Shown one piece after another: positions 8,204-40,477 of a stretch of DNA of 45,827 bases. Below the pieces are notes generated by a model, which saw only the letters and a list, made by a program, of their open reading frames with translations, was not told where the DNA came from and searched no databases. This DNA is from Elusimicrobiota bacterium (lineage in GTDB: Bacteria > Elusimicrobiota > Elusimicrobia > Elusimicrobiales > UBA9959): positions 64,364 through 110,190 of the forward strand of contig JAGVVD010000038.1 in NCBI GenBank assembly GCA_019135865.1, in the 5' to 3' direction. How positions within the stretch are numbered: position 1 is the stretch's first letter; every line of letters begins with the position of its first letter. The position numbers and the translations under genes are program-made.

Positions 8204-8303
8204 AGGGGACGTTGTTGAGTTGTTGACTTGTTGACTTTTGGCCTGGCGTCGCGGTCTGCTGGCCGGAATAACTCAACAAGTCAACAACTCAACAACGTCC
8301 CCT
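8204..8303. repeat. large GGGGAC-headed palindrome (family copy 1)
   Basis: Two perfect 31-base arms, 8204-8234 and 8273-8303, flank a 38-base centre. Each arm is AGGGGAC followed by GTTGTTG, AGTTGTTG and ACTTGTTG, that is, an 8-base unit repeated with small changes. It lies between divergent genes (TPR gene and hyfB). The rest of the 8149-8451 gap contains a TAGAAT -10-like hexamer at 8313-8318 and nothing else I can identify. Related copies occur at 15679-15731 and 40441-40477. The layout resembles REP elements mobilised by RAYT transposases, but no transposase gene is in the window. Confidence 0.8.
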
Positions 8304-8451: not shown

Positions 8452-10422
8452 ATGGTCTTCTTCGCGCTTTCTATTCTCGTTCTGGCCTCTTCCGCTTTTC
8501 TCGCTCTCGCGTCGGGAGGCCTTGCCGCGCGGGCCCGTATCATCGGCGCCGGCGGCGCGCTGCTCGGCTCGGCGCTGGGCCTCGTCTCCGTTCTAAAAGT
8601 GCTGTTCATGACCGGCGCCGAGGCCTACGCCGGGTGGCCCGCTTTTTCAGTCCCGCTGGGCCGGCTGGCGCTTTCGATCGATCCGCTGGCCGCCTTCTTC
8701 CTTCTTCCCGTCTACCTGCTGACCGCCTTCGCCGCCGTCTACGGCGCGGAATACCTCGGCGCCGGAGGGGGGCGCAGGACCGGAGCGGCCTGGTGCTGCT
8801 TCAATCTGCTCACCGCCTCGATGGCGCTGGTCTTCGCCTCGGCCAACGCGGTGCTGTTCATGCTGGCCTGGGAGGCGATGGCCGTCTCCTCTTTCCTGCT
8901 CGTGGTCTACGATCATCATAAGGAACAGGTGCGCCGCGCCGCCCGGATCTACCTGGTCGCGGGCGGGGCGGGCGCGCTGGCGCTGCTCTTGCTCTTCTCG
9001 CTGCTGGGCGCTTCGTCCGGGACGCTGGATTTTGCGGCCTTCGCCAGGCCGGAGGGCGGCGCGGCGGCCGCCGCGTTCCTCGCCGCGCTGCTGGGCTTCG
9101 GCCTCAAGGCCGGCGTGGTGCCGCTGCATGTGTGGCTGCCCGAGGCGCATCCGGCCGCGCCCAGCCACGTGTCGGCGGTGATGAGCGGCGTCATGATAAA
9201 GACCGGCGTTTACGGCCTGGTAAGGACGCTGGGCTGGCTGGCGCCCTGGGACGGCTGGTGGGGGCCGGCGCTGCTGCTGGCCGGTCTGGCCTCGGGGCTG
9301 GTGGGCGTCATCTTCGCCCTGGCGCAGCACGACCTCAAGCGCCTGCTGGCCTATTCCAGCGTCGAGAACATAGGGATAATACTGATGGGGCTCGGCCTGG
9401 GCGTGACGGCCTCGGCCTCCGGCTCTACGGCGGTAGCCGGCCTCTGCTTCGGCGGAGCGCTGCTGCACGCGCTCAACCATTCGCTGTTCAAAGGCCTGCT
9501 GTTCATGGGGGCCGGCGCCGTCATGCACGCGACCGGCACCGGAGAGCTGGAGGCGCTGGGCGGGCTGGCGAAGCGTATGCCGCGCGCTTCGCTCTATTTC
9601 CTCGCCGGCGCCGCGGCCATCTCCGGCCTCCCGCCTTTCAACGGCTTCATCAGCGAGTTCCTGATCTTCCTCGGCTCCTTCGGCGCGCTGCGGGGGCCCG
9701 AGGCTCCGGCGCTCTGGTCCGTGGCCGTATTGCTGGCGCTGGCCGCGATAGGAGGACTGGCGGGAGCCTGCTTCGCGCGGGCCTACGGCTCGGTTTTCCT
9801 GGGCGAGCCGCGTTCTTCGCGCTGCCACTCTGCCCATGACTGCGGCGCGCCCATGCTGGCCGGCCTGGCGCTGCCGGCCGCCGCCTGCCTGTTCATCGGC
9901 CTTTTCCCGTCGGCGGCGGCCGGTCCCGCCGCCGCCGCGGTCTCGTCGGCTTTCGGCGCGGAGCCGGGAGCCGCCTTCCTGTCGGCCGCGGAACTGCCGC
10001 TGGCCTATGTCTCGGCCGGCGCGCTGGCGCTGGTCCTGCTGCTGGCGCTGGCGGCGGCGCTGCGCGTCTTCCTGCTGCGCGGCAAGGTCCCGGCCGCCGG
10101 CCCCACCTGGGACTGCGGCTACGCCGCCCCGACGGCGCGCATGCAGTACGGCGCCTCCTCTTTCGCGCAGCCGTTGACGGACTTCTTCAGGCCGCTGCTG
10201 CGCACCGCCGGCCGCCACGCGCCTCCCGACGGCTATTTCCCCAGGGGCTCGGAATTCCATACCGAGGCCGGCGCTGTCTTCTACAATAATTTCTACGCGC
10301 CGGCGGCGCTGATGCTCAGGCGGGCCGCCTACCGCTTCAGCTGGCTGCAGCACGGCCGGCTGCAGTTCTATATCCTTTATATAATCGGCGCGCTGCTGGC
10401 CCTGCTTCTATGGAAACTCTAG
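8452..10422 (+). CDS. hyfB: HyfB-type antiporter-like subunit
   Basis: A 656-aa polytopic membrane protein of the NuoL/MrpA-like proton-translocating family, closest in layout to HyfB/HycC. The core (about residues 120-420) has the conserved FGLKAGVVPLHVWLPEAHPAAP channel segment with its Lys, the HDLKRLLAYSSVENIG motif and LHALNHSLFKGLLFMGAG. The C-terminal soluble segment (WDCGY, RMQYGASSFAQPL) is typical of HyfB and absent from NuoL. It should be one of two ion-pumping subunits of the complex encoded here. The start at 8452 is the only good ATG, with only a weak AAGG about 15 bases upstream. It overlaps hyfC by 13 bases. Confidence 0.9.
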   Translation: MVFFALSILVLASSAFLALASGGLAARARIIGAGGALLGSALGLVSVLKVLFMTGAEAYAGWPAFSVPLGRLALSIDPLAAFFLLPVYLLTAFAAVYGAEYLGAGGGRRTGAAWCCFNLLTASMALVFASANAVLFMLAWEAMAVSSFLLVVYDHHKEQVRRAARIYLVAGGAGALALLLLFSLLGASSGTLDFAAFARPEGGAAAAAFLAALLGFGLKAGVVPLHVWLPEAHPAAPSHVSAVMSGVMIKTGVYGLVRTLGWLAPWDGWWGPALLLAGLASGLVGVIFALAQHDLKRLLAYSSVENIGIILMGLGLGVTASASGSTAVAGLCFGGALLHALNHSLFKGLLFMGAGAVMHATGTGELEALGGLAKRMPRASLYFLAGAAAISGLPPFNGFISEFLIFLGSFGALRGPEAPALWSVAVLLALAAIGGLAGACFARAYGSVFLGEPRSSRCHSAHDCGAPMLAGLALPAAACLFIGLFPSAAAGPAAAAVSSAFGAEPGAAFLSAAELPLAYVSAGALALVLLLALAAALRVFLLRGKVPAAGPTWDCGYAAPTARMQYGASSFAQPLTDFFRPLLRTAGRHAPPDGYFPRGSEFHTEAGAVFYNNFYAPAALMLRRAAYRFSWLQHGRLQFYILYIIGALLALLLWKL

Positions 10423-11327
10423 AGACCGCGACCAGGTTCGCCGCGGCCCTGCTGCTGGCGCCGCTCCTGCCCGGGATAGTGAACCGGGTAAAAGCCCTTT
10501 TCGCCGGCCGCAAAGGCCGTCCGACGCTGCAGCTTTACTACGACCTGGCGAAGCTGGCGCGCAAGGTGCCGGTCTACAGCCGCACGACGACCTGGGTCTT
10601 CAAGGCCGGACCGGCCGCCGGGCTGGCCGCCGCGGTCTGCGCGCTGGGCGTCCTGCCCTTCGGCGGGCGGCCGGGCCCGCTCGCCTTCGAGGGCGATTTC
10701 CTTTTCATCATCGGTCTGCTGGCCTTCTCGCGCTTCATGACCGTGCTCGCCGCGCTCGACACCGGTTCCGCCTTCGAGGGGATGGGCGCCAGCCGCGAGG
10801 CGCAGTTCGCCGTCTTCTCCGAGCCGGCCTTCTTCCTTTCGCTGGCCGCCCTTTCGCGCGTGACCGGTGAGTTCTCGCTGGCCGGCATGTTCCTTTCGCT
10901 CACGCCCGACTCCTGGCGGGCGGCCGCGCCCGTGCTGGCCCTGGTCACCGCCGCGCTCTTCATCGTCATGCTGGCCGAGAACTGCCGCGTGCCGGCCGAC
11001 GACCCGGACACGCATCTCGAACTGACGATGATACACGAGGTGATGGCGCTCGACCACGGCGGTCCCGAGCTGGCTTACATCCTTTACGGCGCCTCGCTCA
11101 AACTCTGGCTCTTCGCCGCGCTGATAGCGGCGGCCGTGCTGCCGCGCCATTCGGGCTCCTGGCTCTACGACGGGGCCTTCTTCCTGGCCGCGATGGGCGG
11201 CATCGCCGCCGCCGTCGGTATCGCCGAGTCGGCCATGGCCCGGCTGCGGATGCTCAAGGTGCCGTACATGCTGATGGGCGGGCTTATCTTCGCGGCGCTG
11301 GCGCTGCTTTTCCAGACCGGACGCTGA
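10410..11327 (+). CDS. hyfC: HyfC/NuoH-type membrane subunit
   Basis: A 305-aa protein with about eight membrane helices, homologous to complex I NuoH and to HyfC/HycD. The conserved cytoplasmic loop is present: GRKGRPTLQLYYDLAKLARK, GMGASREAQFAVFSEPAFF and ENCRVPADDPDTHLELTMIHE with its cluster of acidic residues. In this family the subunit joins the soluble arm to the membrane arm and forms the entry to the ion path. It overlaps hyfB by 13 bases and is followed one base later by hyfE. Confidence 0.9.
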   Translation: METLETATRFAAALLLAPLLPGIVNRVKALFAGRKGRPTLQLYYDLAKLARKVPVYSRTTTWVFKAGPAAGLAAAVCALGVLPFGGRPGPLAFEGDFLFIIGLLAFSRFMTVLAALDTGSAFEGMGASREAQFAVFSEPAFFLSLAALSRVTGEFSLAGMFLSLTPDSWRAAAPVLALVTAALFIVMLAENCRVPADDPDTHLELTMIHEVMALDHGGPELAYILYGASLKLWLFAALIAAAVLPRHSGSWLYDGAFFLAAMGGIAAAVGIAESAMARLRMLKVPYMLMGGLIFAALALLFQTGR

Positions 11328-11328
11328 C

Positions 11329-11988
11329 ATGAACACCTTCGCCGAACTGACCATAGTGCTGATCATCCTGCTCAACATGGCGATGTCCGTGTCGGGCTCG
11401 CTCGCCTCCTGCATACGGCTGGCGGCCGCGCAGGGCGTGGCGGCCGGCCTGCTGCCGCTGATGGCCGCCGGCGGGGCGCACGGCCGCGCGGTGGCCTTCG
11501 CCGCCTTCATCATCGCTCTCAAGGGCCTGGTCTTCCCCTGGCTGATGCTGCGCGCGCGCGAACTGACCGGCGCGCGCAAGGAGATAGACCCGCTGATCGG
11601 CTACCCGGCCTCGATAACGCTGTGCCTGGCCGCCTTCGCCGCCTCGGCGTGGCTGGGCTCGCGGCTGCCGCTGCCGCAGAGCGGGGTGGCCTATATCATC
11701 CCGGCCTCGCTGGCCACCATCTTCACCGGCTTCCTGCTCATAACCACGCGCGTGAAGGCCATCACGCAGGTGGTAGGCTACCTCGTCGTCGAGAACGGCG
11801 TCTATATCTTTGGCCTGGCGCTGTTCGTGGAGCAGCCGCTGATGGTGGAGCTGGCGATACTGCTCGACGTCTTCGTCGCGGTGTTCGTGATGGGGATAGC
11901 GATCTTCCACATCAGCCGCGAGTTCGACCATATCGACACCGACGCGCTCTCGCAGCTCTCCGACTGGCGGCGCGGGGAGGAGGGCTGA
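11329..11988 (+). CDS. hyfE: HyfE-type membrane subunit (NuoK-like)
   Basis: A 219-aa protein with about seven membrane helices. The C-terminal part (TRVKAITQVVGYLVVENGVYIFGLAL, then EQPLMVELAILLDVFVAVFV) is the NuoK-like region with the conserved membrane Glu residues. Length and end fit HyfE. The stop overlaps the hyfF start (TGATG). In the complex it would sit between the HyfC and antiporter-like subunits. Confidence 0.88.
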   Translation: MNTFAELTIVLIILLNMAMSVSGSLASCIRLAAAQGVAAGLLPLMAAGGAHGRAVAFAAFIIALKGLVFPWLMLRARELTGARKEIDPLIGYPASITLCLAAFAASAWLGSRLPLPQSGVAYIIPASLATIFTGFLLITTRVKAITQVVGYLVVENGVYIFGLALFVEQPLMVELAILLDVFVAVFVMGIAIFHISREFDHIDTDALSQLSDWRRGEEG

Positions 11989-13508
11989 TGGCCGTAGTGC
12001 TGATCGTCCTGCCCCTGCTCTCGGGCGCGGCCGCCTTCCTGCTGCGCGACGACGCCGCGCGCCGGCGGCTGCTGCTCTGGACGGCCTGGCTGCATTTCCT
12101 GCTGACGGCCGGCCGCATACTGGCCTACGGCCGCTGGGGCTGGGCCTATTCCGTCGCGGAGGGGTTCAGGGAAACGCCGTTCTGGCTGCCGGGCGCCTGG
12201 GAGTGGTTCTCCTTCGACGCGCCCGGCCTGCTTTTCCTGGGCGTGACCTCGCTGCTGTTCCTGGGCGCGGCGCATTACGCCGCGGCCTACCTGGCCGAGG
12301 AGAAGCGCGACCCCGGCGAGAAGGGGGAGAACGGGTTCATCTTCAACAACGCGCCCGAGGCCGTCTTCACCGGCTGCCTGCTGCTGTTCCTCTCGGCGAT
12401 GACGGCCGTGGCCGCCGCGCGTCACCTGGGCCTGCTCTGGGCCGCCGTCGAGGCCACCACGCTGCTCAGCGCGCCGCTCATCTACTTCCACCGGCACAAG
12501 CGCTCGCTGGAGGCGACCTGGAAGTACCTGCTGATCTGCTCCGTCGGCATCGCGCTGGCGCTGATGGGCAATCTCTTCATGGGCGCGGCCGGCCTGCGCG
12601 GCGGCGCGGGGCTGCACCTCGACGGCCTGCTGGCCGGGGCGGCGGGGCTCGACTCGCAGCTGCTCAAGGCCGCCTTCATCTTCCTCTTCGTCGGCTACGG
12701 AACCAAGATGGGCCTGGCGCCTTTCCACACCTGGCTGCCCGACGCGCACAGCGAGGCGCCGGCCGTGGTCTCGGCGCTGCTCTCGGGCGCGCTGCTCAAC
12801 TGCGCTTTCCTGGGCGTGCTGCGCGCGGCGCAGGTCTGCGGCGCGGCGGGGCTGGCCGATTTCTCCGGCGGCATACTGGTGCTCTTCGGCCTGGCCTCGC
12901 TGGTCACGGCCGCGCTGTTCATGCTGGGCCAGCGGGATTATAAGCGCATGCTGGCCTATTCGAGCATCGAGCACATGGGTATACTGGCCATAGGCGCGGG
13001 GATGGGCGGCCGCGCGCTCTACGGCGCGCTGCTGGGCGCCGTAGGCCATTCGCTGACCAAAGCCGGGCTCTTCTTCGTCTCGGGACTGGTACTGGCCGCG
13101 TACAGGACCAAGCAGATAAAGGACGTGAAGGGGCTGCTGCGCCGCTCGCCGGCCGTCGCCGCGCTGTGGCTGGCGGGGTTCCTGCTGATAACCGGCACGC
13201 CGCCGTCGGGGATATTCCTGGCCAAGTTCGTCATACTCAAGGAAGCCGTGGCGGGCGGGCGCTGGGCCGTCGCCGGCGTCTATCTTTTCTTCCTGGCCGT
13301 GGTCTTCGCCGCGATGGCGAAGATCTTCATCGAGACGACCTTCGGCGAGCCGGCGCAGGAGCCCGAACGCGGGTTCGAACCGCCGCGCGCCATGGTCCGT
13401 CCCGCGCTCGTTTTCTTCGTCCTGGTCGCGGCGCTGGGCCTCTGCGTCCCCTCCTGGCTGGACGCGGTGCTGAACCTGGCCGCCGGGGCCATAGGAGGCG
13501 CGCGATGA
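11988..13508 (+). CDS. hyfF: HyfF-type antiporter-like subunit
   Basis: A 506-aa second antiporter-like subunit (NuoM/N family, close to HyfF in length). Motifs: GYGTKMGLAPFHTWLPDAHSEAP with the channel Lys, QRDYKRMLAYSSIEHMG and GAVGHSLTKAGLFFVSG. The longer open frame starts at 11622, but the family begins at the ATG 11988 (MAVVLIVLPLLSG), which has GGGGAGGAGGG just upstream and overlaps the hyfE stop. It ends in an ATGA overlap with hyfG. With HyfB it gives two candidate ion pumps. Confidence 0.9.
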   Translation: MAVVLIVLPLLSGAAAFLLRDDAARRRLLLWTAWLHFLLTAGRILAYGRWGWAYSVAEGFRETPFWLPGAWEWFSFDAPGLLFLGVTSLLFLGAAHYAAAYLAEEKRDPGEKGENGFIFNNAPEAVFTGCLLLFLSAMTAVAAARHLGLLWAAVEATTLLSAPLIYFHRHKRSLEATWKYLLICSVGIALALMGNLFMGAAGLRGGAGLHLDGLLAGAAGLDSQLLKAAFIFLFVGYGTKMGLAPFHTWLPDAHSEAPAVVSALLSGALLNCAFLGVLRAAQVCGAAGLADFSGGILVLFGLASLVTAALFMLGQRDYKRMLAYSSIEHMGILAIGAGMGGRALYGALLGAVGHSLTKAGLFFVSGLVLAAYRTKQIKDVKGLLRRSPAVAALWLAGFLLITGTPPSGIFLAKFVILKEAVAGGRWAVAGVYLFFLAVVFAAMAKIFIETTFGEPAQEPERGFEPPRAMVRPALVFFVLVAALGLCVPSWLDAVLNLAAGAIGGAR

Positions 13509-14947
13509 AGCTCTTCGGCCCGGCGGAACTGGCGGCGCTGCCCGCGGATAAGTTCTTCACGCAGCTTTCCGCCTCGCTCTCCGACGGCGGCCGGGCCGCG
13601 GCTTATTTCGCCTCGCCGGCCGACGGCGGCCGGCGGCTCTGCGCCGCGCTGGCGCATGACCGCGCCGGGCGGCTGGAGCTGCTGCTGTCGGAGCCGCTCT
13701 CCGACGGCTTCCCCTCGCTGACGCCCAGGTTCCCGCAGCTGCATCTCTTCGAGCGCGAGATCTTCGAACTTTCGGGCCTCAGGCCCGAAGGACATCCCTG
13801 GCTCAAGCCCGTGCGCTATCCCGCGGGCGGCCCGGACCCGGGCACCGGCGATTTCTTCCGCGTCCACGGTCCCGAGGTGCACGAGGTGGCCGTCGGGCCG
13901 GTGCACGCCGGCGTGATCGAACCGGGCCATTTCCGTTTCCAGTGCCACGGCGAGAACGTTTTCCACCTGGAGATAGCGCTGGGCTACCAGCATCGCGGCG
14001 TCGAGCGGGCGCTCTCCGCCGGGCCCGGCGCGCGCTCCATGCATTACGCCGAGACGCTCGCCGGCGACACGACCATCGGCCACGCCTGGGCTTACTGCGG
14101 CGCCCTGGAGGCGCTCTCGGGCTGCGCCGTGCCGCCGCGGGCGCAGGTCCTGCGCGGCGTGCTGCTGGAGCTCGAGCGCCTGGCCAATCATACCGGCGAC
14201 CTGGGCGCGCTCTCGGGCGACGTCGCCTACCTCCCGACGGCCTCCTTCTGCGGCCGGCTGCGCGGCGAGTATCTCAATATGACCGCCCTGATATGCGGCA
14301 ACCGTTTCGGCCGCAACGCGCTCAGGCCCGGCGGCGTCGATTTCGACCTCGAGCCCGCGCGCGCGGCCGAGCTGCTGCGCCGGCTCGAAGATGTGTTCCG
14401 CGACACGGAAGGCGCGGTCTCGCTCCTCTGGGACACCGCCTCCGTCACCGAGCGTTTCGAGAACACCGGCCCGGTCTCCCGCGCGGACGCGGCGGCGCTG
14501 GGGCTGGTAGGCCCCGCGGCGCGCGCCAGCGGCGTCGATATCGACACCCGCCGCGATTTCCCTTACGGCCCCTACTCGAGGTATGATCCGCCGAAGCCCG
14601 GCCGCGGCGACGTTTACGCCAGGGCATATATGCGCTGGGATGAGATAATCCGCTCCGTGCGCCTGATACGCGGCTGGCTGGCCTCGCTTCCGGCCGGACC
14701 GCTGACCGCTCCCTGCGGTGCCCCCGCGTCCGATTCGGCGGCCGTCTCGCTGGTGGAGAGCTGGCGCGGCCAGGTCTGCCACGCCGCCTTCACCGGGCCC
14801 GGCGGCGGATTCCTCGGCTATAAGGTGGTCGATCCGTCGTTCCACAACTGGCAGGGCCTGGCCCTGGCGCTGCGCGGCGGCCAGATCTCGGATTTCCCGC
14901 TCTGCAACAAGAGCTTCAACCTTTCATATTGCGGTCACGACCTATAA
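13505..14947 (+). CDS. hyfG: HyfG/NuoCD-like large subunit lacking NiFe ligands
   Basis: A 480-aa fusion of a NuoC-like domain (about residues 15-110, with LFEREIFELSGLRPEGHPWL) and a NuoD/hydrogenase-large-subunit domain, as in HycE and HyfG. GPVHAGVIEPGHFRF and GYQHRGVERAL align with the family. Active enzymes carry CGxCGxxH at the first metal site; here the aligned residues are AGDTTIGH (186-193), with both Cys replaced. At the C-terminal site DPCxxC is replaced by NLSYCGHDL; C467 and C476 remain but are wrongly spaced. The protein cannot bind a NiFe centre in the known way, like Ehr proteins and complex I. The open frame begins at 13166, but I start at ATG 13505, coupled to hyfF. Confidence 0.88.
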   Translation: MKLFGPAELAALPADKFFTQLSASLSDGGRAAAYFASPADGGRRLCAALAHDRAGRLELLLSEPLSDGFPSLTPRFPQLHLFEREIFELSGLRPEGHPWLKPVRYPAGGPDPGTGDFFRVHGPEVHEVAVGPVHAGVIEPGHFRFQCHGENVFHLEIALGYQHRGVERALSAGPGARSMHYAETLAGDTTIGHAWAYCGALEALSGCAVPPRAQVLRGVLLELERLANHTGDLGALSGDVAYLPTASFCGRLRGEYLNMTALICGNRFGRNALRPGGVDFDLEPARAAELLRRLEDVFRDTEGAVSLLWDTASVTERFENTGPVSRADAAALGLVGPAARASGVDIDTRRDFPYGPYSRYDPPKPGRGDVYARAYMRWDEIIRSVRLIRGWLASLPAGPLTAPCGAPASDSAAVSLVESWRGQVCHAAFTGPGGGFLGYKVVDPSFHNWQGLALALRGGQISDFPLCNKSFNLSYCGHDL

Positions 14948-14949
14948 CC

Positions 14950-15693
14950 ATGTTCAAAGAACTCATCGAAAGATTCAGACAGGGGCACCGCACCGCGCCT
15001 TTCCCTCCCGGGCCGGAGAAATTCTCCGACCGCTACCTCGGCCTGCCGCGCCTGACCGGCGCGCCGCTGGCGAAAGCCGCCGCCGCCTGTCCCGTCGGTG
15101 CGCTCTCGGCCGCCGACTCCGCGCTGGACATGGGGCGCTGTCTCTTCTGCGGGGCCTGCGCCAAGGCCGACCCCGCCGCCGTCGAGTTCACCCGCGATCA
15201 TCGCCTCAGCTCCGGCTCCCGCGAAGGCCTGGTCCTCGGCTCCGGCGGGACCTTCCGCGCCTCGGGCGAAGCCCCGCCCGACCTGCGCCGTCTCTTCGGC
15301 CGCTCTTTCCGATTGCGGCAGGTCAGCGCCGGCGGCTGCAATGCCTGCGAGGCCGACTGCAACGTGCTGGGGACTCTCGCCTTCGACCTCGGCCGCTTCG
15401 GCGTGCAGTTCGTCGCCTCGCCGCGCCACGCCGACGGCCTGCTGGTCACCGGCCCGGTCACGAAGAACATGGAACTGGCCCTGCGCAAGACCTACGACGC
15501 CACGCCCGGGCCTAAACTGGTCATAGCCTGCGGCGCCTGCGCGGTTTCCGGCGGCCCCTACGCCGGCCACGCCGAGACGCTGGGCGGCGCCGCCGCCGTC
15601 GTGCCGGTGGACATGTTCATCCCCGGGTGCCCTCCGCATCCCTACACCATCCTCGACGGCATCCTGCGCCTTATAAACGGGGACATTGTTTAG
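14950..15693 (+). CDS. hyfI: HyfH-HyfI fusion: one-cluster ferredoxin domain plus small subunit
   Basis: A 247-aa protein. Residues 40-80 are a reduced ferredoxin domain: C47 in AACPVGAL and C64, C67, C70 in CLFCGACAKADP, enough for one [4Fe-4S] cluster; the first CxxCxxC and the fourth Cys of the second motif are gone. Residues 120-245 are the NuoB/HyfI small subunit with proximal-cluster Cys C130 and C133 (GGCNACEADC), C197 (ACGACAVSGG) and C227 (IPGCPPHP). Normally these are two genes, hyfH and hyfI. The ATG at 14950 has no clear ribosome site; a TTG at 14929 is less likely. The stop codon lies inside the palindrome at 15679-15731. No hyp maturation genes are nearby. Confidence 0.85.
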   Translation: MFKELIERFRQGHRTAPFPPGPEKFSDRYLGLPRLTGAPLAKAAAACPVGALSAADSALDMGRCLFCGACAKADPAAVEFTRDHRLSSGSREGLVLGSGGTFRASGEAPPDLRRLFGRSFRLRQVSAGGCNACEADCNVLGTLAFDLGRFGVQFVASPRHADGLLVTGPVTKNMELALRKTYDATPGPKLVIACGACAVSGGPYAGHAETLGGAAAVVPVDMFIPGCPPHPYTILDGILRLINGDIV

Positions 15694-15731
15694 TTCTTTA
15701 GTTTTAACTAAAGAACTGAAGAACGTCCCCC
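15679..15731. repeat. GGGGAC-headed palindrome (family copy 2) at the hyfI stop codon
   Basis: The left arm begins GGGGACATTGTTTAGTTC and the right arm, read in reverse, begins GGGGACGTTCTTCAGTTC; both continue TTTAGTT to a tiny loop. It has the same GGGGAC head and 8-base period as the copy at 8204-8303, with different unit bases. The last codons of the hyfI-like gene (GDIV, stop) are written by the left arm. No T tract follows on either strand, so it is not a typical terminator. Confidence 0.75.
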
Positions 15732-15810: not shown

Positions 15811-18800
15811 ATGCTCAGACTCGCCGCCATCCTCTTATTCTCGTTCCAGACCGCTTATGCGCAGGCGCAGAGCGGGGCCGACGCCCTTTTCGACAAAGGG
15901 CTTTACCAGGAAGCCCTGGCCGCCTATTCCGAAAAGGCCGGTTACGGCGATGAGGACGCTTTGCGGGCGCTGTACAGGTCGGCGGAATGCGAGGCGCTCC
16001 TCTTCCGCTACGCCGAGGCGAACGCGCGTCTTTCCGGCTTCAGGCCGCCGAAGGATCCCGTCTGGCGCGGGCGTCTCCTCGCCCTGCGCGCGGAACTCGG
16101 CAAGGAGTTCCTGCGGCAGTACGGCCATTCTCTGCCGGCGGACCTGCGGAAAGGCACCACCGACCTGACGAAGCTCACCCGCGCAGAGTGGGAGTCCAGG
16201 ATAAACTCCGACTATGACGCGCTCTGGCCGCTGGCGGAGACCCTCTCGAAGGTCCCTTTAAAGGAAGAGGGTTATTTCGTGGACCTGGAGAAGGCGTATC
16301 TCGGCTATACCGCGTCGTTATGGGATTTCTTCGCGCTGAAATGGGGAGGCTGGCTGCTGGACGGGGCGGAGAAACCCTCCAAGGACCCGGGAGCGGAGCC
16401 GTTCCTCGCCGAAAACTACGAGCGGGCTTTCTCCGCGGCGCTGCATCCGGCGCTCAAGGCGGCCGCCGTTTATGAAAGGGCCTCCGGTCTGGCCCCGCGG
16501 GGGTCCGTGCCGAACGAATACTGGAGGATACGCCGGGCGCTTATCCCTTACAGGCTGGGCTACCTGCTCTCCGGAAAGAGGGAGGGGAGCGCCGGTCCCG
16601 GTCCGGCGCGGGAGACGGCCCGGCTCCTGGCCGCCTGGTCCCTTTCTTTCTCCTCCCCGCAGGGAAAGGCCTGGGCGGCGCGGGAAGCCGCGCGGCTCCA
16701 TCACGATTTCGGGGATTTCGAAAAAGCCGTGGAGCTCTGTTCCGCGGCCGAGGACTACGCCCCCGGCTCCAGGCCCGCCGCGGAGTGCGGGAAGCTGAAG
16801 GCCGGCATCGAAATGCCCGAGCTGGAACTTTCGCTCAGGACCGTCCCTCCCCCGGGGAGCGGCGGCCTCTCCGTTTCCGCGCGCAATCTCCACCAGGTGC
16901 ATTTCCGGGCCTACAGGACTTCGCCGGAGGCCATAGAGTTCGCCGCTCCCGCCGGCCGCAACGGCTGGGGCCACCTGAGGGACTTAAGCCTGGAGGCCGC
17001 CGGTTTCTTCCTGAAAAAGGGGCCGGACGTTTCCTGGAAGGAGGAGATCCGGTATCCCTCCCGCTACGCCCGGCACACGCAGGAAGCGGTCCCTCCCGCG
17101 CTGAAGAAAGGTCTCTACGTCGTCATCGCCTCCGGGGACCCGTCCTTCGACAGCGGCTCTTCCCTGATGAGGGCCGGCGTCCTGAACGTGACCGACATCA
17201 TGCTGATGGCCACCGGCGCGCCCGGCGGCGACCCCGAGGATTTCCTCGCGGCCCCGGAAGGGGCGCGCAAGGTCACGACGGCCATGTTCCATCTCTACGC
17301 CCTGGACGGGGCGTCCGGCAGGCCGCTGCCGGGGGCCAGACTGGATCATTTCTACTCCCTGCCGCGGCGCGGGGGATGGAACAGGGGGACGGCCTCTTTC
17401 GGCCCCGGCGGGACCCTGGAGCTCCCTTTCGAGACGGAGATCTCCTATCCGTCGCGGGAGCATTTCTCGCTGGACCCGCTGGCCTCGCACGGCGGGGCTT
17501 ACGCTTATACCGGCCGCGCGCTGAGCTCTTCGCTGTCCGTGCCGCCGCCCCTCGTGGTAGGACTGGAAACGGACAGGCCGGTGTACCGGCCGGGACAGGA
17601 GGTCAGGTTCAAGGCCACGGTGCTAGAGCGGCGTCCCGGCGGTCTCGCCGTCCACGCCGGCGGGAGGAAGATAAAGATCAGCGCCCGGGACGCGAACTGG
17701 CAGGAATTCTTCAGCAGCTCCTTCGAGCTCAACGATATGGGCAGCGCGGCCGGGTCTTTCACCGTCCCCCCGGGACGCCTGCTGGGCGGGTATCAGGTCG
17801 CGGGCGAGATCCTGGGCCACGGCGGCTCTTTCCGCGGTTCGGCCGCTTTTTCCGTGGAGGAATACAAACGGCCGGAGTTCGAGGTCCTGCTGGAGGAAGC
17901 GAAGGGTCCGTTCCGCTTCGGCCGGAAAGCGAGGGTGAGCGGGTCCGCCAGATATTATTCCGGCCCGCCGGTCGCCGGCGCCGAAGTGCGCTACCGGGTG
18001 AACAGGTCCCGTTACGTGCCCTGGTACGCCTGGTGGATGCCTTCGGACCCGTCGGCGGAGGAGGTCGCCTCCGGGACGATGAGAACGGCGGCGGACGGTT
18101 CTTTCTCCTTCGAGTTCACGCCGGAGGGCGACGGGGATTACCCGGCGGACCTCGGGGTGACCGTCGAAGCGCGCGACGCCGGCGGCAGGGTCATAACCGC
18201 TTCCCGTTCCTACCGCGCCGGGGCGAGATCGTACCTGGTGGACATAAGCCCGGAAGCCGGGTTCTTCACCCCCGCCGCGAAGCCTTCGGTAAAGCTCAGG
18301 CTCCTGACGCTCGGGGACGTCCAGGTCTCCGGTTCGGGTACCTACCGGCTTTACAGGATAGACAAGACCCCCGATTACGAGCCGCGGACCGGCTGGGGCG
18401 GCTCTTTCGGCCGCGCGCAGGACCTCAACACTTTCTTCGCCGAAGTTCCGGACGGCAGGCTGGTGGAGGAGGGGCGCGCGGATTTCGACGCGAGGTCCGC
18501 GAAGGAGCTGAAACTGGGCGCGCTGACGGAGGGAGTCTACCGTCTCAGGCTCAGGGTCCCGGACCCCTGGGGAGGGGAGTCGGAGGGGTCCCTGGTCCTC
18601 GTTTCCTTCGACCCCGGGCGCAAACTCTCCTCGCTGAACCTGCCCCCGACGGCCATCTTCGAGAGAAGCTCGTATCAGGCCGGAGAGACGGCCCGCCTGC
18701 TCCTCGGGGCTTCGGCCCTGAAAGGGGCCAAGTTCCTGGAGATCTTCGCCGGCGGTTTCCTGCTGGAGAAACGCACTCTCGCGTCCCCCGGCGTTTCCAT

Positions 18801-21711
18801 GGCCGAGATCAGGATCGGCGACCGGCACCGCGGCGGCTTCGACGCGCGCTGGTTCGGGGTTTCGGATTCCAATATCTACTCCGCCTCGGAGCACGCCTCC
18901 GTCCCGCTTTCCGACAGGGAACTGGCGGTGACGCTGGAGCATCCCGGCTCCCTGGAACCGGGCGGACGGGCCGAATGGACCCTTAACGCCAGGGACTCCG
19001 CCGGCCGCCCGGCCGGGGGGGAGGCCACCGTCAGGGTCTTCGACCGCTCGCTGGAATATTACCGCGCCGCGGCGGTCCCCTGGCTGGACGGACTTTACCA
19101 GGAGAGACGTTCGCACGCTCCTTCCGCCTCCTCCCTTTTCCAGGGACGGGCCGCTTCTTTCCCGGTGAAGAGGGGCCTCGTGTCGCGGATGTTCGACCTC
19201 TTCGCGCGCAGCGCGGCCGAGGAGAAGTTCCCCTCTTTCAGGCTGAACGCCGCCGCCGCCGCGGACCGTGTATATTTTTCCGCCAAGTCCCTGGGCGGGA
19301 CCATGATGGACACCGCCGGCGGGGGCCTGGCGGCGGCGGACCCGGCTTCCCGCCCCGCGATCGCGCTCTCCGGGGTCAGGGAGGAGCGGGAGACCTTTAA
19401 CGAAGCGCCTCCCGCCGGAAAGGAGAAGGAGGCGCAGTCGGCTCCCCGCTCCGATTTCTCGGAGACGGCTTATTTCAATCCCCAGCTCAGGTTCGAGAAG
19501 GGGCGCGGGCGGATATCGTTCACCATGCCGGAAAGGCTGACCTCCTGGAAGGTGACGGCGCAGGTGCTGACCCCGGACGTGAAAAAAGGAGCGGTTTCCG
19601 CGACGGTCGTGACCCGGAAGGACCTGATGGCGCGTCTCGACCTGCCCCGTTACCTGCGCGAAGGCGACGAGTCGGAGATCGTGGCGGTGATCGGCAACGC
19701 TTCCGACGGGCCGCTGAGCGGCTCCGCGGCGCTTTCCGTGACCCGCGACGGCAGGGACGCGGCCGCGGAGCTGGGGCTGTCCGGCCTGTCCCGGGAGTTC
19801 TCGGCCGGAAAGGACGCCTCGGTCGCGCTGCGCTGGAAGGCGAAGGCGCCGCTTTCCACGGGCTTCTACAAGGTCAGGATAACGGCGCGCGCAGGCCGCT
19901 TCTCCGACGCCCAGGAGAACGACCTGCCCGTGCTGCCCTCGCGCGAGCGGCTTTTCGCCTCGGTCAACGCCGTTCTGGACGGTCATGCCGAAAAGGAACT
20001 GCGCCTCAGGGAACTGGAGAAACGGGACGCCTCGCGGATCGTCGAATCCTCGCATCTGGAGATACAGCCGCAGCTGGCGCTGGCCGTGCTCAACAGCCTG
20101 CCGCACCTGGTGCGCTACCCGCACGAATGCACCGAGCAGCTGCTCAACCGCTACGTGCCGCTCTCGATAGTGAACGCGTTCTATTCCAGGTATCCGGCGC
20201 TGGCGGCCGCGGCGTCGAAGGTCCCCAGGCGCGCCTCCGTCACGCCCGCCTGGGAGCGGGACAACCCGCTGCGCCTCATCTCCCTGCTGGAAACGCCGTG
20301 GGAGGAGGCCTCCAGGGGCCGCGCGCGTTCGCGGCCCTCCGCCGACATGCTGGACGCCGGGCTGGTGTCGGCCGAGCGGAAGGCGGCCCTGGAGAAGCTC
20401 AAGAGCTACCAGCTCCCCGACGGGTCCTTCCCGTGGTTCCCGGGCGGCCGCCCGAACCTGCACATGACGCTCTATGTCCTGGAGGGTTTCGCCGAGGGCG
20501 AGCGCTACGGCGTGGACGCGCCTGACGATATGGCACGGAGGGCGCTGAAATACGTCCTCGCCGAGATCCCCGGCTACATGAAGCCGGAGCCGGCGGAGAC
20601 TTCCATGCTCCTCTACGCCGCTTACGTCGTCTCGGCCTTCGAGGGCAGATGGCCGGAATCCCGCGCGGCCCTCAAGTACGCCAAGCTCTGGGCCGATCAC
20701 GCGGACAAGCATTACCGCGCCATGACGCCGATGGGCAGGGCCTACGCGGCCTATGTCTACCTGCGGCTGGGAGAGAAGGAGAAAGCGGAACTTTATCTTA
20801 AGCGCGCCATGGACGGCGCGCGCGAGGACGAGGTCTCGGGGCTTTACTGGGCGCCGGAGAAGATCTCCTGGCTCTGGTACAACGACACCGTCGAGAAGCA
20901 CGCCTTCCTGCTGCGAACGCTCACGGCCTTCAGTCCCAGGGACCCGCGCGCCGCCAAAATGGCGCGGTGGCTGCTTTTCAACAGGCGCGCTTCCGAGTGG
21001 AAGTCCACCCGCGCCTCGGCCGCGGCCATCTATTCGCTGCTGGACTTCATGAAGGCGCGCGGCGCGCTCGACAAGGGGGAGGAATTCTCCCTGGAATGGG
21101 GAGGGACGAAGGAAAAGGCCTCCGTCGGCCCGGCGGACTGGCTGGAGAAGCCGCTGCGCTGGTCGCTCTACGGCGCGGACATAAAGCCCGGGCACGCCTC
21201 GGCGAAGATCTCCAAGAAAGGTCCCGGCCTCGCCTTCGCCTCGCTGGCGGCCGTATATACCAGCGGCGAACCGGCCGGGTCTTCGCCCTCAGGCATGATG
21301 AACGTGGAGCGGAAATATTTCCTCCGCGAGAAGGAGGGCGCGGGCTACGCCCTGAGACCGCTGAAGAGCGGCGACGCCGTGCCGGCCGGTTCGGAGATAG
21401 AGGTGAAGCTCACGGTAAGGACGCGTTCGGCCTTCGAGTACGTGCATCTGAAGGACCCCAAGCCGGCCGGCTTCGAGGCGGAGTCGCTGCTGAGCGGCTG
21501 GAAATGGGACCGGCTCTCCCGCTACGAGGAACAGCGCGACTCGCTGACCAATTTCTTCATGGAATGGGTCCCCCGCGGCGAATACGAGTTCGGCTACCGC
21601 CTTCGCCCGTCGCTGCCCGGGACCTACCGCCTGGGCGCGGCGGTCATACAGTCCATGTACGCGCCGGAGTTCGGCGCTCATTCCGACGGCATGATCATCA
21701 GGGTGAAGTGA
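15811..21711 (+). CDS. bacterial alpha-2-macroglobulin with thioester motif
   Basis: A 1966-aa periplasmic protein with a Sec signal (MLRLAAILLFSFQTAYAQAQ) and no lipobox. Residues about 20-350 are TPR-like helices, unusual compared with the E. coli YfhM layout. An MG2 domain starts near 585 (ETDRPVYRPGQEVRFKATVL); the A2M domain is near 1218 (AYFNPQLRFEKGRGRISF, then LTSWKVTAQVL); the thioester sequence is CTEQ with C1440 in YPHECTEQLLNRY, followed by the alpha-helical thioester domain (about 1500-1720). Such proteins trap proteases covalently and protect the periplasm. They are often next to pbpC; here no pbpC is present. The start has AGGGGG 5 bases before the ATG. dinB follows after seven bases. 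Confidence 0.92.
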   Translation: MLRLAAILLFSFQTAYAQAQSGADALFDKGLYQEALAAYSEKAGYGDEDALRALYRSAECEALLFRYAEANARLSGFRPPKDPVWRGRLLALRAELGKEFLRQYGHSLPADLRKGTTDLTKLTRAEWESRINSDYDALWPLAETLSKVPLKEEGYFVDLEKAYLGYTASLWDFFALKWGGWLLDGAEKPSKDPGAEPFLAENYERAFSAALHPALKAAAVYERASGLAPRGSVPNEYWRIRRALIPYRLGYLLSGKREGSAGPGPARETARLLAAWSLSFSSPQGKAWAAREAARLHHDFGDFEKAVELCSAAEDYAPGSRPAAECGKLKAGIEMPELELSLRTVPPPGSGGLSVSARNLHQVHFRAYRTSPEAIEFAAPAGRNGWGHLRDLSLEAAGFFLKKGPDVSWKEEIRYPSRYARHTQEAVPPALKKGLYVVIASGDPSFDSGSSLMRAGVLNVTDIMLMATGAPGGDPEDFLAAPEGARKVTTAMFHLYALDGASGRPLPGARLDHFYSLPRRGGWNRGTASFGPGGTLELPFETEISYPSREHFSLDPLASHGGAYAYTGRALSSSLSVPPPLVVGLETDRPVYRPGQEVRFKATVLERRPGGLAVHAGGRKIKISARDANWQEFFSSSFELNDMGSAAGSFTVPPGRLLGGYQVAGEILGHGGSFRGSAAFSVEEYKRPEFEVLLEEAKGPFRFGRKARVSGSARYYSGPPVAGAEVRYRVNRSRYVPWYAWWMPSDPSAEEVASGTMRTAADGSFSFEFTPEGDGDYPADLGVTVEARDAGGRVITASRSYRAGARSYLVDISPEAGFFTPAAKPSVKLRLLTLGDVQVSGSGTYRLYRIDKTPDYEPRTGWGGSFGRAQDLNTFFAEVPDGRLVEEGRADFDARSAKELKLGALTEGVYRLRLRVPDPWGGESEGSLVLVSFDPGRKLSSLNLPPTAIFERSSYQAGETARLLLGASALKGAKFLEIFAGGFLLEKRTLASPGVSMAEIRIGDRHRGGFDARWFGVSDSNIYSASEHASVPLSDRELAVTLEHPGSLEPGGRAEWTLNARDSAGRPAGGEATVRVFDRSLEYYRAAAVPWLDGLYQERRSHAPSASSLFQGRAASFPVKRGLVSRMFDLFARSAAEEKFPSFRLNAAAAADRVYFSAKSLGGTMMDTAGGGLAAADPASRPAIALSGVREERETFNEAPPAGKEKEAQSAPRSDFSETAYFNPQLRFEKGRGRISFTMPERLTSWKVTAQVLTPDVKKGAVSATVVTRKDLMARLDLPRYLREGDESEIVAVIGNASDGPLSGSAALSVTRDGRDAAAELGLSGLSREFSAGKDASVALRWKAKAPLSTGFYKVRITARAGRFSDAQENDLPVLPSRERLFASVNAVLDGHAEKELRLRELEKRDASRIVESSHLEIQPQLALAVLNSLPHLVRYPHECTEQLLNRYVPLSIVNAFYSRYPALAAAASKVPRRASVTPAWERDNPLRLISLLETPWEEASRGRARSRPSADMLDAGLVSAERKAALEKLKSYQLPDGSFPWFPGGRPNLHMTLYVLEGFAEGERYGVDAPDDMARRALKYVLAEIPGYMKPEPAETSMLLYAAYVVSAFEGRWPESRAALKYAKLWADHADKHYRAMTPMGRAYAAYVYLRLGEKEKAELYLKRAMDGAREDEVSGLYWAPEKISWLWYNDTVEKHAFLLRTLTAFSPRDPRAAKMARWLLFNRRASEWKSTRASAAAIYSLLDFMKARGALDKGEEFSLEWGGTKEKASVGPADWLEKPLRWSLYGADIKPGHASAKISKKGPGLAFASLAAVYTSGEPAGSSPSGMMNVERKYFLREKEGAGYALRPLKSGDAVPAGSEIEVKLTVRTRSAFEYVHLKDPKPAGFEAESLLSGWKWDRLSRYEEQRDSLTNFFMEWVPRGEYEFGYRLRPSLPGTYRLGAAVIQSMYAPEFGAHSDGMIIRVK

Positions 21712-40440: not shown

Positions 40441-40477
40441 AACAAGTCAACAACTCAACAAGTCAACAACGTCCCCT
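40441..40477. repeat. GGGGAC-headed repeat arm (family copy 3) before prfC
   Basis: On the minus strand it reads AGGGGAC then GTTGTTG, ACTTGTTG, AGTTGTTG, ACTTGTT: the same head and 8-base units as at 8204-8303 in another order, but without the opposing arm. It ends one base before the prfC ATG at 40479 and fills the place where a ribosome site should be. Confidence 0.75.

Follow-up and report, generated by a model that had tools for sequence, protein, structure and literature searches.

A predicted Ehr complex of an Elusimicrobiota bacterium with a uniform, highly conserved pocket in place of the NiFe site

We analyzed a 45,827-nucleotide stretch from an Elusimicrobiota bacterium (assembly GCA_019135865.1, contig JAGVVD010000038.1, positions 64,364 to 110,190; hereafter the window), in which a six-gene operon (8452-15693, + strand) encodes a complex related to [NiFe] hydrogenases and complex I whose large subunit lacks the Ni ligands. 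The genes are tightly packed, with overlaps of 13, 1 and 4 bp and other gaps of 1-2 bp. The host genome (2.95 Mb) has a completeness rating of 100%, and the nearest named relatives of the window are Elusimicrobia. Family models recovered the subunit set that a previous reading of this DNA from its letters (the sequence-only reading) had listed, namely two antiporter-like subunits, HyfC, HyfE, a HyfG-like large subunit and a small subunit. The genes (lengths in amino acids, aa) and the motifs on which the interpretation depends are as follows.

8452..10422, + strand: hyfB, EhrA/HyfB-like antiporter-type membrane subunit, 656 aa (NCBIfam hydrogenase 4 subunit B, E 2.8e-171, under the curated cut-off; Pfam Proton_antipo_M)
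10410..11327, + strand: hyfC, EhrB/HyfC (NuoH-like) membrane subunit, 305 aa (Pfam NADHdh, E 3.5e-27)
11329..11988, + strand: hyfE, EhrC/HyfE-like membrane subunit, 219 aa (NCBIfam hydrogenase 4 membrane subunit, E 5.9e-14, under the curated cut-off; top E. coli match HyfE)
11988..13508, + strand: hyfF, HyfF-like antiporter-type membrane subunit, 506 aa (NCBIfam hydrogenase 4 subunit F, E 1.4e-96, under the curated cut-off)
13505..14947, + strand: hyfG, EhrL/HyfG-like large subunit, 480 aa, with fused 30-kDa and 49-kDa domains and without Ni ligands (Pfam Complex1_30kDa, Complex1_49kDa)
14950..15693, + strand: hyfI, EhrS/HyfI-like small subunit, 247 aa, with an N-terminal ferredoxin-like domain (Pfam Oxidored_q6, E 3.5e-27)
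13895..13945, + strand: predicted pocket hairpin GPVHAGVIEPGHFRFQC of HyfG, residues 131-147, with Ile138 (the complex I His38 position), the hydrogenase-like Glu139 and Cys147 (conservation and alignment)
14060..14083, + strand: AGDTTIGH of HyfG, residues 186-193, in place of CGxCxxxH (alignment)
14918..14944, + strand: C-terminal NLSYCGHDL of HyfG, residues 472-480, in place of DPCxxC (alignment)
15088..15159, + strand: ligands C47, C64, C67 and C70 of the sole remaining ferredoxin-type [4Fe-4S] cluster of HyfI (alignment)
15337..15630, + strand: proximal [4Fe-4S] ligands C130, C133, C197 and C227 of HyfI, with hydrogenase-type CxxC spacing (alignment with MbhJ and HycG)

To place the operon, relatives were searched for in one genome per species (84,980 species), and 80 close relatives were kept. 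They come from Elusimicrobia, Planctomycetes, Hydrogenedentes, Omnitrophota, Acidobacteria, Geobacter, Smithella, Spirochaetes and others, and the order B-C-E-F-G-I is usual among them across many phyla. In a maximum-likelihood tree, the large subunit of the window falls into a clade with Geobacter Ehr (support 100/100), which is represented there by other Geobacter, the G. sulfurreducens protein itself being absent. The clade adjoins HycE (99/98) and stands apart from NuoD; its stem measures 3.07 changes per site, and the exact sister is uncertain owing to long branches. The Ehr complex of G. sulfurreducens strain PCA (ehrA-1, A-2, B, C, L, S) is encoded by GSU0739-0745 (PMC7894505) and resembles that of the window in subunit types and order, in the absence of NiFe ligands and in large-subunit clade (see also PMC13194489). 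The examined Geobacter loci differ in often having a second HyfB-like gene as well as an adjoining helix-turn-helix (HTH) plus PTS-EIIA gene; in the window, HyfB is single and the HTH plus PTS-EIIA neighbor is absent. In G. argillaceus (locus L101), three further genes lie between the second HyfB-like gene and the six-gene operon, a spacing equal to that published for KN400_0713 (ehrA-2) to KN400_0718 (ehrB) (compared with PMC13194489). Because the Geobacter clade, gene order and locus spacing all match, the operon is assigned by sequence to Ehr (energy-converting-hydrogenase-related), a described but functionally uncharacterised family reported to lack NiFe ligands and to be of unknown function (PMC6349859, PMC10284858). 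The sequence-only reading had called the complex a candidate for an undescribed pump and its partners different from those of Ehr; neither claim is supported, as the same six genes occur in the same order in many phyla, the gene order of G. argillaceus agrees with that of published G. sulfurreducens ehr loci (PMC13194489, PMC7894505), and the phylogeny that it proposed separates the window HyfG from hydrogenases and NuoD and joins it to Geobacter Ehr.

The closest solved structure by both sequence and fold is HycE of the E. coli formate hydrogenlyase (7z0s_E, TMq 0.86). E. coli Hyc/Hyf, a group 4a [NiFe] system and neighbor in the tree, has counterparts of HyfB, C, E, F, G and I, but the window operon is without HyfA, D, H and J, and its large subunit is only about 28% identical and lacks both the NiFe Cys (CGxC, DPCxxC) and the cleavable C-terminal extension. 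Ehr thus appears related to a formate-hydrogenlyase/hydrogenase-4-like enzyme and is most likely descended from one.

The NiFe site itself was examined by aligning the window HyfG with E. coli HycE, MbhL, Nqo4 and three host paralogues. The four NiFe Cys positions are occupied by Ala186, Thr189, Ser474 and Gly477, so that none of the four Cys is left; this agrees with the sequence-only reading, which had noted both altered motifs and the loss of all NiFe ligands. As judged from this alignment, a NiFe site is impossible in the window HyfG. The replacement is nearly uniform across the 87 large-subunit rows (Thr189 in 84; Gly187, Asp188 and His193 in all; the C-terminal (N/S)LSYxGxDL in 86), which argues against chance or decay. 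In addition, HyfG terminates at the Arg position of HycE SCTDR (SLDPCYSCTDR), where HycE runs 32 residues further; the gene would therefore yield a ready-processed C-terminus for which no maturation protease is needed. The host paralogues on contigs C41 and C30 (C30:43 kb) keep all four NiFe Cys, and the one on C46 is a true NuoD; the ligand loss is therefore specific to the window copy. Besides Ehr, the same genome has two group-4 complexes with intact NiFe Cys, four in each (L117:9827-14877 and L119:3787-13172); since both keep these residues, the host carries two energy-converting hydrogenases in addition to complex I and Ehr.

Conservation indicates that the pocket has been rebuilt rather than left to decay. 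When the 87 large subunits are scanned in 20-residue windows, conservation is highest at 128-147 (97.5%) and 461-480 (96%), compared with a protein mean of 69%. By hydrogenase homology these two segments, which comprise the EPGHFRFQC hairpin and the place of the lost second Cys pair, correspond to the pocket. That the former metal site is the most conserved region of the Ehr large subunit is new in this analysis, and the alignment depicts a uniform new site replacing the NiFe pocket. Comparisons of close relatives gave dN/dS values (the ratio of nonsynonymous to synonymous substitution rates) of 0.09-0.13 in the large subunit and of 0.06-0.14 in the remaining five. The putative ion path is similarly preserved: E141, K219 and K250 of HyfB are 100% conserved and E402 98% (65 rows), K240, K319 and K358 of HyfF 100% and E155 97% (75 rows), and the acidic/His E-channel of HyfC (Asp96, Asp117, Glu123, Glu130, Glu138, Glu190, Asp197/198, Glu204, His209/Glu210 and Glu273) 100% (72 rows). 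This 97-100% conservation favors the ion-pump function that the sequence-only reading had suggested. Strong selection thus maintains these residues, and likewise the proximal and one ferredoxin-type cluster of the small subunit.

In complex I, the quinone headgroup is bound by His38 and Tyr87 of Nqo4. The host's own NuoD retains both residues, whereas all 87 Ehr rows have Ile138 and Gly187 in their place, although Ehr and complex I (NuoD/Nqo4) share the fold, the loss of all NiFe Cys and the counterparts of the membrane arm. Conversely, Glu139 is present in all 87 main-clade rows and in every hydrogenase aligned but absent from NuoD; it aligns with the Glu that we take to relay protons to the active site of [NiFe] hydrogenases. 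Six large-subunit Cys (147, 249, 264, 425, 467 and 476) are near-invariant. A new Fe-S cluster built from them is a candidate for the main clade only, and the lack of Cys147 and Cys476 in distant Ehr clades weighs against it. The AlphaFold2 model of the large subunit (predicted local distance difference test, pLDDT, 86; predicted template modeling score, pTM, 0.89) has low confidence at 127-146 and 476-480, presumably because these segments pack on the small subunit, and therefore does not show the pocket.

The small subunit is predicted to retain an electron path to this pocket. Its proximal-cluster Cys are nearly universal (C130, C133 and C197 in 82/82 rows, C227 in 81/82). NuoB of complex I has adjacent CC instead of the CxxC found in the Ehr small subunit (PMC7684303). 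Pyrococcus membrane-bound sulfane reductase (MBS) is also a ferredoxin-linked pump of the same superfamily that lost its NiFe site, but it retains two of the four NiFe Cys, and its catalysis is placed at a proximal cluster with three Cys, whereas the CxxC-spaced cluster of the membrane-bound hydrogenase (MBH) only passes electrons (PMC7684303). Because the four-Cys cluster of Ehr has the electron-passing spacing of MBH, the chemistry is placed in the pocket. The small-subunit N-terminus gave weak matches to the HycF and NuoI models (ferredoxin domains), and an eight-Cys two-cluster motif is present in about 49 of the 82 rows. In the window and its Elusimicrobia relatives, one of the two clusters is missing all four ligands and the other is intact, indicating a coherent loss. 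Thus, the statement of the sequence-only reading that the proximal and ferredoxin Cys are kept is right for all four proximal ligands and for only one of the two ferredoxin clusters, and its view that electrons can still reach the old pocket is supported by the kept proximal cluster.

Taken together, the replaced His38/Tyr87, the kept Glu139, the ready-processed C-terminus and the CxxC-spaced four-Cys proximal cluster argue for chemistry in a rebuilt cavity that differs in its details from the chemistry of both complex I and MBS. Redox-coupled charge translocation by Ehr has been suspected in the literature, and we consider it somewhat probable that Ehr is an ion pump driven by low-potential electrons whose acceptor binds in the rebuilt pocket. 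A low-potential donor, e.g., reduced ferredoxin or an unknown oxidoreductase, would reduce the ferredoxin domain of the small subunit, and the proximal cluster would hand the electrons on to a small acceptor bound where the NiFe site used to be; Glu139 might supply a proton. The released energy would drive translocation of H+ or Na+ via HyfC, HyfB and HyfF, and the machine might also run in reverse, spending the ion gradient on the reduction of ferredoxin. For the acceptor, which the sequence-only reading had left open, a membrane quinone bound differently from that of complex I is the leading candidate, with a likelihood that falls a little short of even; polysulfide is a rather improbable one. 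More tentatively, Ehr could represent a fourth functional class within the complex I superfamily, in addition to the proton-, sulfane- and His/Tyr-quinone-reducing pumps, its cavity having turned into a specific, protonatable site that binds an acceptor or donor by chemistry so far undescribed in the superfamily.

Several observations weigh against this proposal or against a quinone as its acceptor. No donor gene was found consistently beside the operon across lineages in the neighborhoods of Ehr loci; for this reason a diffusible donor such as ferredoxin would be favored. The ferredoxin domain is absent from some subfamilies and the proximal-cluster ligands from one. With respect to quinone, the complex I binding residues are replaced in every Ehr row, and a profile search of the host genome found no MqnA/D and no MenD over cut-off. 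Riflemargulisbacteria are also reported to have Ehr without a quinone pathway (PMC6349859). We surveyed quinone genes in 51 genomes (the host and the 50 holding the other Ehr loci) and found MqnA/D over cut-off in 23, MenD over cut-off in none and a menA-like match in 25. A UbiA-family enzyme occurred in 31 of 32 genomes tested; the exception, Ehr-bearing G110 (completeness unknown), had no UbiA or MqnA/D match and no MenD over cut-off. In favor of a quinone, UbiA in the host's family was over cut-off in 19/19 Ehr-bearing (15 of the main type, 4 divergent) and 14/18 Ehr-lacking genomes, and in 0/24 genomes of the sister family. This correlation is compatible with a quinone but confounded by kinship. 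Quinone absence as a decisive argument was rejected for the host, since it has a complex I gene cluster (L120) and a menA-like prenyltransferase gene adjoining a polyprenyl synthase gene (L131:4749-6609; 98-99 bits versus a cut-off of 102) despite having no MenD or MqnA/D. The complex I and menA-like genes also count in favor of a quinone. The combination may reflect precursor salvage or an unrecognised quinone route.

Among other explanations, one 2026 paper assumes for Geobacter that Ehr is a relic, i.e., a hydrogenase that has lost its metal site and is drifting. The loss of the NiFe ligands fits this, and according to the paper Ehr is nonfunctional and two ehr genes had missense mutations following prolonged growth on electrodes (PMC13194489). 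However, a dN/dS of about 0.1 in all six genes, ion-path residues and a six-gene order retained across phyla, and a pocket that is the most conserved region across phyla contradict it. Because the pocket is so conserved and dN/dS so low, Ehr is probably active, and a relic is scarcely credible. A pump that reduces polysulfide or another disulfide in the manner of Pyrococcus MBS, possibly via the conserved large-subunit Cys, would account for the lost NiFe ligands and the six near-invariant Cys, but in MBS the proximal cluster assigned as catalytic has three Cys (PMC7684303), that of Ehr has four with CxxC throughout, and Cys147 and Cys476 are absent from distant Ehr clades; we regard it as quite improbable.

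The direction of electron flow and a link to formate also need to be considered. Ehr might be an ion-gradient-driven ferredoxin reductase that oxidises quinol or another donor in the pocket. In principle such an architecture can work in either direction, reverse electron transport has been suggested for the Geobacter complex (PMC7894505), and plasmid relatives occur in the largely aerobic Rhizobium, Azospirillum and Cupriavidus, where spare reduced ferredoxin is less likely. Nevertheless, the subfamilies of these plasmid relatives, where examined, mostly have no ferredoxin domain, and sequence does not reveal direction, so that this explanation is unlikely, if worth keeping in view. As for formate, a docked formate dehydrogenase has been proposed to feed Ehr in Margulisbacteria and Geobacter, and an FDH-Ehr is put forward in PMC6349859. 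Formate hydrogenlyase is the nearest structural kin, and G. sulfurreducens cultures grown on formate had higher levels of Ehr subunits than those with hydrogen (PMC7894505), an observation that also favors our main proposal. Yet formate dehydrogenase is not among the identified recurrent neighboring gene families, and the operon has no HycB/HyfA-like linker subunit, which makes a formate-linked Ehr very doubtful. A glycerol-3-phosphate-dehydrogenase-like triad (families c8-c7-c10) was rejected as donor, as the host DUF1667 member is on a different contig; the triad precedes ehr in many Elusimicrobia relatives, follows it in one, and is probably only local synteny.

Ehr is widespread, including in cultivable Geobacter and, through its relatives, on plasmids of Rhizobium and Burkholderia kin, and it has sometimes been called nonfunctional. 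Under our preferred explanation of a pump with a rebuilt pocket, the conserved cavity makes the substrate question concrete, with invariant Ile138, Glu139, His142, Asp188, Thr189, His193 and NKSFNLSY and a short list of acceptors, and it would add a data point on the evolution of complex I from hydrogenases.

More distant relatives were found on plasmids of Variovorax, Paraburkholderia, Cupriavidus, Rhizobium, Azospirillum and Meiothermus. All five plasmid relatives examined keep the NKSF...Y.G.DL C-terminus, and several have no ferredoxin domain; a literature search on the rhizobial relatives found no reports. On plasmid pMESIL01 of Allomeiothermus silvanus (Meiothermus silvanus), the small subunit (L137:11260-12132) has lost all four proximal Cys (NTGLDD, GNEAI, PGSP) and kept the ferredoxin-type Cys, and a second copy lies near 21491 of the record. 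The electron path to the pocket in this complex I-type assembly is not obvious from its sequence. A divergent Ehr clade in the host's own family (L121 and L122, in G014 and G027; 35-41% identity) has DGEAAFAH and NLSYPGNDL, no Glu139, Cys147 or Cys476, and a 172-aa small subunit without a ferredoxin domain. Ehr-like operons L134:3819-6682 (a Paraburkholderia plasmid) and L133 adjoin fused major facilitator superfamily (MFS)/spermidine synthase genes, with an HPr-family gene nearby in L134.

With regard to neighboring genes, an HTH_17 plus PTS_EIIA_2 (PtsN-like) gene of roughly 230 aa lies beside or overlaps ehrA in 33 loci from many phyla (including L083:4193-4888 and L101:3443-4126), although neither the window operon nor those of its close relatives have it as a neighbor. 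One example read has an IPHPR motif, and this neighbor suggests phosphotransferase-linked control of Ehr. Palindromic repeats with ends GGGGACRTTGTT...AACGTCCCC were observed on both sides of the operon (8204-8303 and 15679-15730) and at 40456-40476 of the window; their half-sites occur 28 times in the genome versus 0 in a reversed-pattern control, as in a REP-like family. A Y1-transposase-like open reading frame, judged by eye, is located at L119:851-1813. Directly downstream of the operon, a secreted-looking open reading frame of 1966 aa (15811-21711) resembles bacterial alpha-2-macroglobulin.

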